This document shows, one piece after another, positions 6,090 through 19,496 of a stretch of DNA of 64,000 nt. Below the pieces are notes generated by a model, which did not search any database, was not told the DNA's origin, and saw only the letters and a program-made list of their open reading frames with translations. The stretch is from positions 1 to 64,000 of the forward strand of contig NZ_BBWU01000016.1 of the NCBI RefSeq assembly GCF_000974765.1. The letters run 5' to 3'. This stretch comes from Sphingomonas changbaiensis NBRC 104936 (GTDB lineage: Bacteria; Pseudomonadota; Alphaproteobacteria; Sphingomonadales; Sphingomonadaceae). Positions within the stretch are counted from its first letter, which is position 1, and each line of letters begins with the position of its first letter. The position numbers and the translations under genes are program-made.

Positions 6090-6104
6090 GAACAGGTAGG
6101 GAAC
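6090..6104 (-). promoter_or_regulatory. LexA (SOS) box upstream of uvrD
   Basis: GAAC-AGGTAGG-GAAC on the plus strand, that is GTTC-N7-GTTC on the uvrD strand. This matches the direct-repeat LexA operator known from Alphaproteobacteria exactly. It ends 4 nt before the GTG start, so LexA bound here would cover the start of a short-leader or leaderless transcript. A second identical-format box occurs at 18569-18583. Confidence 0.75.
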
Positions 6105-16827: not shown

Positions 16828-17562
16828 ATGGCATCGCTTGAAAAGCCGCCGGTCGCGACGACGAACGTCAAGTGGCGCTGGCCCTCCGTCCATCCGGATG
16901 GACGCAAATTCGTTCTGATTTCAGCCGTTATCACGCTGATCTTTGCCTGGTTCGCGTGGGAGACGCTGGCCTGGCCGATGGCGGCGGTGACGGTGTGGGT
17001 TGCCGCGTTCTTCCGCGATCCGATCCGCAGCGTTCCGCAAGGGGAGGGGCTGGTGATCGCGCCGGCCGACGGGTTGATCACGCTGATCCAGCAGGTCCTG
17101 CCGCCACCCGAACTGGCGGGCGAAGGGGGGCTGGGCGAGGCGCCGATGACGCGCGTGTCGATCTTCATGAGCGTGTTCGACGTGCACATCAATCGCGCGC
17201 CGATCGCGGGAACGATCCGCAAGATCGCCTATATCTCCGGCAAATTCCTGAACGCCGATCTCGACAAGGCGAGCGAGGATAACGAACGCCAGCATTTCCT
17301 GGTCGAGAGCCCTGAAGGCGTGCGGATCGGCTTCACCCAGATTGCCGGCCTGGTCGCGCGGCGGATCGTGCCGTTCGTGAAAGTGGGGGATATGGTCGGG
17401 CGCGGGCAGCGGATCGGGCTGATCCGCTTCGGCAGCCGCGTCGACGTATACCTGCCGGCTGGCACCAGCCCGCGCGTCGCGCTTGGCCAAAGGACGATGG
17501 CGGGCGAGACGGTGATCGCGAAGCTCGGCGAGCGCGACGCAGGCGTCGGCATCCCGCAATGA
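16828..17562 (+). CDS. psd: Phosphatidylserine decarboxylase proenzyme
   Basis: 244-residue short-form (type II-like) PSD that makes phosphatidylethanolamine from phosphatidylserine at the inner membrane. A hydrophobic segment occupies residues ~28-55, then FFRDP, the DVHINRAP motif, and the self-cleavage site IRFGSRVD, where the Ser becomes the pyruvoyl group. GS in place of the enteric LGST is normal for this subgroup. ATG 16828 follows AAGGAAG. Its stop overlaps the pssA start by 4 nt (ATGA), which fits two consecutive steps of phospholipid synthesis being coupled. Confidence 0.96.
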
Positions 17563-18353
17563 TCCCCGATCGACCCCGGCGCGGCATTTCGCTGCGCGCC
17601 GTCGCTCCCAATGCGGTGACGGCGCTCGCGCTGTGCATGGGATTGTCGGGCATTCGCTTTGCGATCGGCGGGGAATGGGACCGGGCGCTGGCCTCGATCA
17701 TCATCGCCGGCGTGCTGGACGGGCTCGACGGCCGCATCGCGCGGCTGCTGAAGGGCGAAAGCCGGTTCGGCGCGGAGCTCGATTCGCTCTCCGACGTGAT
17801 CGCGTTCGGGGTGTCGCCGGCGATCATCCTCTATCTCTGGTCTCTGCAGGCGCTGCCCCGCTATGGCTGGCTGTTCGCGCTGGCGCAGGCCGTCTGTTGT
17901 GCGCTGAGGCTTGCCCGGTTCAACGCGCAGATCGACGCGACCGAGCAGCCCCATAAGTCCGCCGGCTTCCTGACCGGCGTGCCGGCGCCGGCCGGGGCCG
18001 GGCTGGCGCTGCTGCCGATTTACATATGGCTCTGGTCGGGCAACGACGTGTTGCGCCAAGTCTGGATCGTCGCGCCGTGGATGGCGCTGGTTGCGTTCCT
18101 GATGATTTCCAATGTGGCCACGTTCAGCTGGTCTTCGCTGCGGCTGCGGCGCACGATCCGGCTGGAAGCGATTGCCGGCGTCGCTCTTCTCGGCGGCGCG
18201 CTGATCACCGCGCCGTGGGAAACGCTGACCGTCGTGGCCGTGATCTATATCGCGCTGATCCCGTTCAGCATCCGTTCCTACGCGCGGGTCAAGCGGCGGC
18301 GCGCAACGGCTGCGCACGCCGCTGGGCCGGAGCTCTCCACGCGCGCACCCTGA
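17559..18353 (+). CDS. pssA: CDP-diacylglycerol--serine O-phosphatidyltransferase
   Basis: 264-residue integral membrane enzyme that joins CDP-diacylglycerol and L-serine, supplying the substrate of Psd. The CDP-alcohol phosphotransferase motif is complete: DG-x2-AR-x8-G-x3-D-x3-D in [10 protein letters not shown]...GAELDSLSD, residues ~51-74. About seven hydrophobic segments follow. Downstream its last 65 nt overlap the 3' end of a small gene on the other strand. Confidence 0.95.
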
Positions 18354-18513
18354 CACGGACCCGCGGCGCGGCCAGCGCGCGGGCTCCGGCGAGTTCTTCG
18401 CCGCCGAGAATCGCGATCACGCGATCCCATTCGCCGCGCAGCAGCCCGGCAACCAGAGCGGCTGCACCGATCGCTGCGAACGTGAAGAAAAGCGCGGAGA
18501 AAATCTGGGCCAT
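18289..18513 (-). CDS. Small single-pass membrane protein, candidate SOS-induced
   Basis: 74 residues: one hydrophobic helix (about residues 4-24, FSALFFTFAAIGAAALVAGL) followed by an amphipathic stretch (RGEWDRVIAILGGEEL) and an Arg/Ala-rich tail. No family recognised. The ATG at 18513 has a strong ribosome-binding site (AGGGAGG, spacing 5), which argues that it is real despite the convergent 65-nt overlap with pssA. Upstream, a consensus TTGACA (-35) and a perfect GTTC-N7-GTTC LexA box lie together, so it should be induced by DNA damage. Size, topology and regulation resemble the Caulobacter division inhibitor SidA, but there is no clear sequence match, so the role is speculation. Confidence 0.7.
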   Translation of the reverse strand: MAQIFSALFFTFAAIGAAALVAGLLRGEWDRVIAILGGEELAGARALAAPRVRVRVRAWRAPAQRRAQPLRAAA

Positions 18514-18568
18514 CGAAACCTCCCTGAGGTCATGAACGCCAACCGTCCGTGACTCTGTTGGTTCCTAT

Positions 18569-18595
18569 GTTCACGATATGTTCCGATGCTGTCAA
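18569..18595 (-). promoter_or_regulatory. LexA (SOS) box and -35 element of the small membrane gene
   Basis: GTTC-ACGATAT-GTTC at 18569-18583 matches the alphaproteobacterial LexA operator exactly; another GTTC sits 4 nt to its left (18561-18564). Reading the minus strand, TTGACA (18595-18590) lies 6 nt before the box, so bound LexA would cover the -10 region. The small membrane gene starts 56 nt downstream. The rpsB promoter on the other strand begins about 15 nt away and is probably not controlled by this box. Confidence 0.75.
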
Positions 18596-18597
18596 GC

Positions 18598-18626
18598 TTG
18601 CAAATGACTCGGTTCGCCGCTAAGGG
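18598..18626 (+). promoter_or_regulatory. Putative rpsB promoter
   Basis: -35 TTGCAA (18598-18603), 17-nt spacer, -10 TAAGGG (18621-18626), leaving a leader of roughly 90 nt before rpsB. That leader could hold the S2 autoregulatory structure known in other bacteria, but I did not recognise a defined fold. Confidence 0.45.
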
Positions 18627-18722
18627 CCGCCGCATTCCACATGGAAGGCGCTCATACCGGTGTCCTGGACCCGTCCGGGATCACTGCCTTCCAGAGGTAT
18701 AACCGGGTAAGGAGAACATCCT

Positions 18723-19496
18723 ATGGCGGCTCCCACCGTCTCTCTGAATGCGCTTGTCGAAGCGGGCGCGCATTTCGGCCACCAGACGCATCGCTGGAAT
18801 CCCAAGATGAAGCCGTACATCTACGGCGAGCGGAACGGCGTGCACATTCTCGACCTGTCGCAGACCGTGCCGCTGTTCGCGCGCGCGCTGGACTTCATCA
18901 GCTCGTCGGTCGCGGCCGGGGGCAAGGTGCTGTTCGTCGGCACCAAGCGCCAGGCGCAGGAGCCGATTGCCGAGGCCGCGCGCCGTTCGGGCCAGCATTT
19001 CGTCAACCACCGCTGGCTGGGCGGCATGCTCACCAACTGGAAGACGATCTCGAACTCGATCAAGCGTTTCAAGGCGCTGGAAGAGCAGCTGTCGGGCGAC
19101 ACGCACGGCCTGACCAAGAAGGAAGTGCTGCAGCTGACCCGCGAGCGCGACAAGCTGGAGCTGTCGCTGGGCGGCATCCGCGACATGGGCGGCATTCCGG
19201 ACGTGATGTTCGTGATCGACGCCAACAAGGAAGAGCTGGCGATCAAGGAAGCCAACACGCTGGGCATCCCGGTCGTCGCGATCCTCGATTCGAACGTCTC
19301 GCCGGACGGCATCGCCTTCCCGGTGCCGGGCAATGACGACGCCAGCCGCGCGATCCGCCTGTATGTGGACGCGGTCGCCCAGGCGGCGACGCGCGGCGGC
19401 CAGCAGGGCCAGGCCCAGCGCGGCGTCGACATCGGTGCAATGGCCGAACCGCCGGCCGAGGAAGCGCTGAGCGAAGGCGAGCCCGCGGCGGCTTAA
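18723..19496 (+). CDS. rpsB: 30S ribosomal protein S2
   Basis: 257-residue S2 of the small ribosomal subunit. Typical N-terminus ([24 protein letters not shown]), the [15 protein letters not shown] motif, and [19 protein letters not shown]...[12 protein letters not shown]. The last ~35 residues are an acidic alanine-rich tail. ATG 18723 follows AAGGAG at spacing 8. It heads the conserved rpsB-tsf-pyrH-frr cluster; a type D repeat separates it from tsf. Confidence 0.98.

Follow-up and report, generated by a model that had tools for sequence, protein, structure and literature searches.

A small membrane-protein gene behind a conserved LexA box in the Sphingomonadaceae, a possible SOS inhibitor of cell division

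A small gene between pssA and rpsB of Sphingomonas changbaiensis NBRC 104936 almost certainly belongs to the LexA (SOS) regulon, and its product, a protein with one predicted membrane helix, has a somewhat better than even chance of inhibiting cell division, judging by analogy with SidA, SosA, and YneA. The gene lies in the window analyzed here, a 64,000-nucleotide stretch of contig NZ_BBWU01000016.1, and its features are collected in Table 1. A preliminary description of this DNA had proposed a 74-residue single-pass protein with a ribosome-binding site, and we found the open reading frame (ORF) as described, with AGGGAGGT 4 nt from the ATG. The last 65 nt of the ORF (18289-18353) are antisense to the end of pssA, and the LexA box sits in the promoter, between TTGACA and the start codon.

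Table 1. Features of the small gene, its neighbors, and other copies of the LexA motif in the window
Feature	Position	Strand	Basis
Small ORF, ATG, 74 aa + stop	18289..18513	minus	Sequence and ORF list; dN/dS 0.07-0.46, 14/14 pairs
N-terminal hydrophobic membrane helix, codons 4-25	18439..18504	minus	Hydrophobicity and AlphaFold2
C-terminal AAA, codons 72-74, candidate ClpXP-type degron	18292..18300	minus	Conserved -AA in relatives
Ribosome-binding site, Shine-Dalgarno-like AGGGAGGT	18518..18525	minus	4 nt before ATG; sequence
Third GTTC (plus-strand letters; GAAC on gene strand)	18561..18564	.	4 nt beyond box; sequence
Candidate -10, GAACAT	18567..18572	minus	17 nt after TTGACA, overlapping second half-site; inference
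LexA box GTTCACGATATGTTC (= GAACATATCGTGAAC on gene strand; GTTC-ACGATAT-GTTC)	18569..18583	.	Exact motif; kept at 63/70 orthologues
-35 of small gene, TTGACA	18590..18595	minus	6 nt before box; sequence
pssA (CDP-alcohol phosphatidyltransferase), convergent neighbor of small ORF	17559..18353	plus	Pfam PF01066
rpsB (ribosomal protein S2), divergent neighbor of small ORF	18723..19496	plus	Pfam PF00318
Other exact GTTCN7GTTC copy, at uvrD-type helicase	6090-6104		Motif scan of window
Other exact GTTCN7GTTC copy, inside pssA	18263-18277		Motif scan of window

The exact operator, its distance from TTGACA, and the nearby third GTTC all agree with the preliminary description. A generic sigma70 scan of positions 18250 to 18750 found no promoter. 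Because 17 nt separate TTGACA from GAACAT, the second half-site appears to double as a poor -10 element, and LexA at the box would cover both the spacer and the -10. This operator position suggests simple repression, in which LexA bound between the -35 and -10 elements would shut the promoter. In the window, exact GTTCN7GTTC occurs 3 times against 1.52 expected, and 20 of 100 shuffles reached 3 copies; thus, taken by itself, the box does not exceed chance expectation there. This near-chance frequency, along with the divergent orientation of rpsB from the box, would fit a reading in which the box serves rpsB or nothing and the ORF is spurious, held in place by its overlap with pssA. We consider that reading exceedingly improbable on the comparative evidence that follows.

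We assessed conservation at loci chosen by the protein alone. At a threshold of E ≤ 0.01, a search with the single protein gave matches in 9 of 59 genomes, with 5 (own genome included) matched at full length at E ≤ 4.6e-6; among named organisms, Sphingomonas horti and Sphingomonas sp. ID1715 came nearest. A five-row profile found the gene in 52 of 397 family genomes and a 29-row profile in 133 of 397, spread over 36 of 96 genera. Seventy of the 133 loci were read, comprising 30 from the five-row search (29 of which went into the 29-row profile) and 40 that stood high in the match list. In 63 of these 70 protein-selected loci, the 200 nt upstream of the start contain an exact GAACN7GAAC. Among the seven others, one (L054) is cut by a contig end and six (L064, L066, L153, L157, L162, L170) carry the one-mismatch form GAACN7GATC. 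Other half-site spacings were seen in 0 to 15 of the 70 loci (15 at spacing 5 and 10 at spacing 10, which third half-sites and tandem boxes account for). A letter control, CAAG..CAAG, was seen in 0 to 2. Because the box is conserved at orthologous loci picked by protein only, it stands above chance. The preliminary description had taken joint conservation of box and helix among relatives as support for its idea of an SOS-induced small membrane protein, and absence of the box from relatives that keep the gene as a sign against it; the helix is kept together with the box at these loci, and LexA control of the small gene is strongly supported across the family.

Two variants of this arrangement were seen, each in one genus. 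All six GAACN7GATC loci belong to genus g72, in which the preference of LexA may be shifted; in those read (L064 and L066) the gene adjoins pssA, not rpsB. In genus g96 (L045, L049, L057, L059, L146), two full boxes 25 nt apart precede the gene.

Since its sequence drifts fast while the operator and the ends are kept, profile searches, with their 133 of 397 genomes, miss the gene. We searched two sets of profile-missed family genomes beginning at a box, so that box and ORF are not independent in these sets. Set B held 40 of at least 57 profile-missed genomes among the rpsB matches listed, of which one locus (L136) was too short, leaving 39; set C held 30, a single genome being taken from each genus by handle number. 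ORFs had to reach 40 aa in the first set B scan and 25 aa in the set C, outgroup, and pssA-side scans. At rpsB, an exact box followed by a transmembrane ORF of 40 to 140 aa was found in 32 of 39 set B loci. L114 has a box with a 28-aa ORF, three loci (L109, L118, L119) have a transmembrane ORF behind a one-mismatch box, and three (L107, L115, L142) have neither box nor ORF at rpsB and no pssA there. In set C, 21 of 30 loci have an exact box and transmembrane ORF at rpsB, two (L242, L247) have a one-mismatch box with ORFs ending in -AAA, and seven have neither box nor ORF at rpsB, one of these (L245) lying at a contig end. Searching beside pssA instead recovered an exact box and transmembrane ORF in G111 of set B and in G025, G008, G010, G027, and G059 of set C; there, G012 has a full promoter with no ORF found, G165 is without such a gene, the contig of G069 stops short, and in G030 pssA was not found. 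The ORF is therefore present in 37 of 40 set B and 28 of 30 set C genomes (65 of 70), behind an exact box in 60 and a one-mismatch box in 5, and in 135 of 140 genomes overall, a nonrandom sample whose first 70 are there by selection. As background, the transmembrane-ORF rule was satisfied at 175 of 3000 random positions in the window, 269 of 2940 in outgroup loci, and 317 of 1145 in set B loci away from the box, the last figure probably being raised by the multi-pass pssA.

The promoters share more than the box. Of 95 promoters with an exact box (63 profile-matched and 32 from set B), a script found TTGA 1 to 6 nt ahead of the box in 80, the distance being counted from the end of the hexamer to GAAC. 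Among the other 15, L052 has TTGAC in place (lost to the 200-nt slice) and L048 has TTGACA 14 nt away. The consensus of the 80 is RGAACAWAnnGnGAACATA, with a third GAAC within 9 nt after the box in 19 of them.

Where rpsB is elsewhere, the gene stays beside pssA (L064, L066, G111, G025, G008, G010, G059), and because gene and box stay together there, we rejected the possibility that the box serves rpsB. This persistence could also mean that the fixed neighborhood is functional, with the protein acting on PssA or nearby enzymes, under SOS control, to modulate phospholipid synthesis or envelope maintenance. However, the gene is convergent with pssA and shares no operon with it, and a short overlapping gene may stay put because moving would break pssA; we regard such a role as quite unlikely. 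On the other side of the box, a putative rpsB promoter read by eye (TTGCAA at 18598-18603 and TAAGGG at 18621-18626) points away from the small gene. Farther on, blocks resembling CATGTGGAATG and CACCGGTATG are strongly conserved upstream of rpsB, in the window (18630-18722) and in the family loci. They are possibly an S2 autoregulatory leader, for which Rfam gave no match.

Outside the family, the region upstream of rpsB has box plus transmembrane ORF in 0 of 49 loci (22 order-level and 27 class-level), with a bare box twice in the gene orientation and once in the opposite one; because pssA does not adjoin rpsB in any of the 22 order-level loci, this comparison covers the place rather than the gene. 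A class-wide profile search of 385 genomes gave no convincing relative, and it is an insensitive search, because family members included in it (G019, G070, G119, G131) also gave no match. Besides the genome's own, it returned 14 weak matches (best E 5.7e-4), which we took as noise, several lying inside long frames or containing stops. Beside pssA, a small transmembrane ORF accompanies an exact box in 2 of 22 order-level outgroup loci (L277 and L294, family f2). Their boxes lie 872 and 1099 nt from pssA, neither with TTGA just before it; these are possible distant relatives or chance occurrences, and we treat them as leads only.

Across the genome, the exact motif occurs 90 times, compared to 39 for a reversed control pattern. 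Twenty of the 90 sites were inspected by reading the adjoining ORFs; they were picked by eye for operator-like spacers, with the window's uvrD site added. The same motif precedes lexA, recA, imuA-, dnaE2-, and dinB-type genes, rmuC, and uvrD of this genome. Products from 10 of the 20 sites were run against NCBIfam and Pfam: LexA, RecA, two radical-SAM proteins, RmuC, a UvrD-type helicase, and an MmcB-like protein passed a curated cut-off in one or the other. ImuA, a DnaE2-type error-prone polymerase (truncated at the end of the locus), and a DNA polymerase IV type gave matches below their cut-offs. Several of the other ten sites fall within ORFs with no evident repair gene (e.g., L076, L078, L084, L085), so some occurrences of the bare motif are false sites.

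Three of the inspected sites adjoin other genes of possible interest. At L077 (G000:C22:9800-13800), an exact box at 2016 lies 224 nt before a MraZ-like ORF, named by eye, at the head of a division and cell-wall cluster; it could link the SOS response to division genes, or be chance. Candidate SOS genes follow exact boxes at L074 (G000:C6:143400-147600), a 172-aa ORF resembling 2'-5' RNA ligase by eye, and at L088 (G000:C40:13200-17200), a 58-aa ORF.

The ORF itself is under purifying selection. Its dN/dS is 0.07 to 0.46 in 14 of 14 pairs, and for codons 1 to 48, which do not overlap pssA in the window's own genome, it is 0.08 to 0.41, again in all 14. The preliminary description had left room for an ORF conserved no further than the pssA overlap constrains it; selection on codons 1 to 48 led us to reject such an artefact. 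We likewise rejected a chance box, given the spacing and letter controls, the genome-wide reversed pattern, the 0 of 49 outgroup loci, and a search of set B in the opposite orientation (0 of 39 loci). With gene and box persisting beside pssA in the absence of rpsB, these results leave the reading of a spurious ORF behind an accidental box with almost no weight.

We compared 62 members of the protein with Pfam and NCBIfam. No family in either matched more than one of them, and no member matched a SulA family, so the earlier claim of no recognizable homology stands as regards these two collections. Matches to DUF2269 (E 0.0037) and NF051484 (E 0.001), each to 1 of 62 members, and one solved-structure match at E 0.41 were taken as noise. 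Median length is 74 aa among the 70 profile-matched members and 77 aa among the 32 of set B, and the strongest 19-residue hydrophobic stretch begins at residue 3 to 4 (medians), forming one N-terminal helix. AlphaFold2 (sequence A3) predicts a long helix at residues 2 to 36, a short helix at 39 to 47, and then a tail of low confidence; the mean pLDDT is 74.4 and the pTM 0.38 (block pLDDT 95, 98, 87, and 74). Net charge is about 0 before the helix and about +6.5 after it, the tail being Arg-rich, and the C-terminal flank is the more positive one in 70 of 70 profile-matched and 31 of 32 set B members. By the positive-inside rule, the N-terminus is probably outside and the Arg-rich tail cytoplasmic.

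With a basic tail of this cytoplasmic type, the protein could attach to DNA or to a soluble partner, which raises the possibility of another membrane-linked SOS task, such as anchoring a repair or cell-cycle factor, or of an SOS-linked envelope regulator; HigX of Caulobacter, an SOS-controlled membrane transcription factor (PMC13384398), provides a precedent. However, the tail is of low complexity, aligns poorly except at its end, and is nearly absent in genus g52. We consider a task of this kind unlikely, although not negligibly so.

After the helix, the most constant feature of the protein is its C-terminus, which the preliminary description had not mentioned. It ends in -AA in 63 of 70 profile-matched, 25 of 32 set B, and 17 of 21 set C members, and in -AAA in 41 of 70 and 18 of 32 of the first two groups. 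Among 122 mechanically called window ORFs of at least 150 aa, 6 end in -AA and 2 in -AAA; among random transmembrane ORFs, -AA ends 17 of 175 in the window, 0 of 269 in the outgroup, and 40 of 317 in set B loci away from the box. The tmRNA tag of this genome is ANDNEALAIAA, ending in IAA, and ClpXP C-motif-1 substrates end in LAA, NAA, PAA, or EAA (PMC9775585). The conserved -AA thus resembles an SsrA-type ClpXP degron and is a candidate for one, and we think removal of the protein by a protease, ClpXP, fairly likely. This degron would not be universal, because the g52 ORFs (35 to 38 aa; L305, L306) are without tail or -AA; 7 of the 70 profile-matched members are without -AA. Very short versions keep box and helix (38 and 35 aa in L305 and L306 of genus g52; 28 aa in L114), and they are near the reported size of SidA.

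We propose the following sequence of events. DNA damage would activate RecA, LexA would be cleaved, and the small inner-membrane protein would be made. Its helix would most likely bind a late divisome component (FtsW/FtsI/FtsN type) and delay septation. ClpXP or a similar protease would then clear the protein by its exposed C-terminal Ala-Ala, and division would resume once LexA returns. A protein made only after damage and carrying its own degradation signal would suit a reversible checkpoint. We place the whole reading, a LexA-repressed, damage-induced inner-membrane inhibitor of the late divisome that is removed by proteolysis, at about even chances, and it rests mainly on the LexA and division steps.

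TisB and DinQ are SOS-controlled small membrane peptides. The small gene could encode one of their type, a LexA-repressed peptide that, instead of targeting the divisome, reduces the membrane potential and slows growth; the small size, one helix, and SOS control would suit this. However, a long tail, of some 40 residues, that is under purifying selection and has a conserved C-terminus is unexpected of a pore peptide, and no antisense RNA is seen here: Rfam finds no RNA of any kind at 18200-18800, a search that would miss an undescribed antisense RNA. A peptide of this type therefore seems improbable to us. DinQ, a toxic single-pass SOS peptide (PMC3567139), also bears on the division reading, since not every SOS-induced membrane protein inhibits division; HigX is another case.

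Returning to the division-inhibitor reading, we tentatively extend it to an SOS checkpoint of the whole family, at somewhat less than even likelihood: the gene would be fixed beside pssA, with the LexA promoter, helix, and protease tag held while the rest drifts beyond recognition. In that event, the members of 28 to 38 aa (L114, L305, L306) would mark a size route from DidA to SidA, suggesting a minimal helix around which such inhibitors are built again and again. In the open-licence literature, we found no account of sphingomonad division arrest after DNA damage and nothing recognized as this gene, a report elsewhere being possible. Division control after damage can be tested directly on this one gene, with its operator and predicted degron, and the gene's fast drift suggests that similar small SOS proteins have been overlooked elsewhere.

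SOS-induced small membrane proteins are a known kind, to which this gene adds a family new to Pfam and NCBIfam. The comparisons below are with published descriptions. SidA of Caulobacter crescentus, an SOS inhibitor of 29 aa that acts on FtsW, is likewise a LexA-controlled, small single-pass inner-membrane protein of an alphaproteobacterium (PMC4211646); compared by description, a typical member here has about 74 aa, an Arg-rich tail, and an -AA end, whereas the g52 members have 35 to 38 aa. DidA of the same species (71 aa) resembles the protein in having one helix, in being made after DNA damage, and in an ORF that overlaps its neighbor, but it is SOS independent, being induced by DriD and acting through FtsN (PMC4211646), whereas the small gene here has a LexA box. 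SulA of Escherichia coli is SOS controlled and removed by the AAA+ protease Lon depending on its last residue (PMC9775585), a C-terminus-dependent AAA+ removal that is predicted here; in contrast to SulA, which is cytosolic and acts on FtsZ, the protein here has a membrane helix and no Pfam match. SosA of Staphylococcus (77 aa) blocks division, its activity and turnover depend on its C-terminus, and its turnover depends on CtpA (PMC6851548). Like YneA of Bacillus, it is SOS induced with a single helix. The C-terminal parts of SosA and YneA are extracellular (PMC6851548, PMC13396833), whereas here the positive-inside charge points the tail to the cytoplasm; because of this predicted location, a protease of another class would be needed. 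YneA binds FtsW TM7, and low-confidence models suggest FtsW for SidA, SosA, and ChiZ (PMC13396833). The protein here shares the build common to the SidA, SosA, YneA, and ChiZ kind, small with one predicted transmembrane helix. Late division is the step blocked by SOS inhibitors known to be similarly small and similarly built, SidA, SosA (PMC6851548), and YneA (PMC13396833), and also by DidA (PMC4211646).
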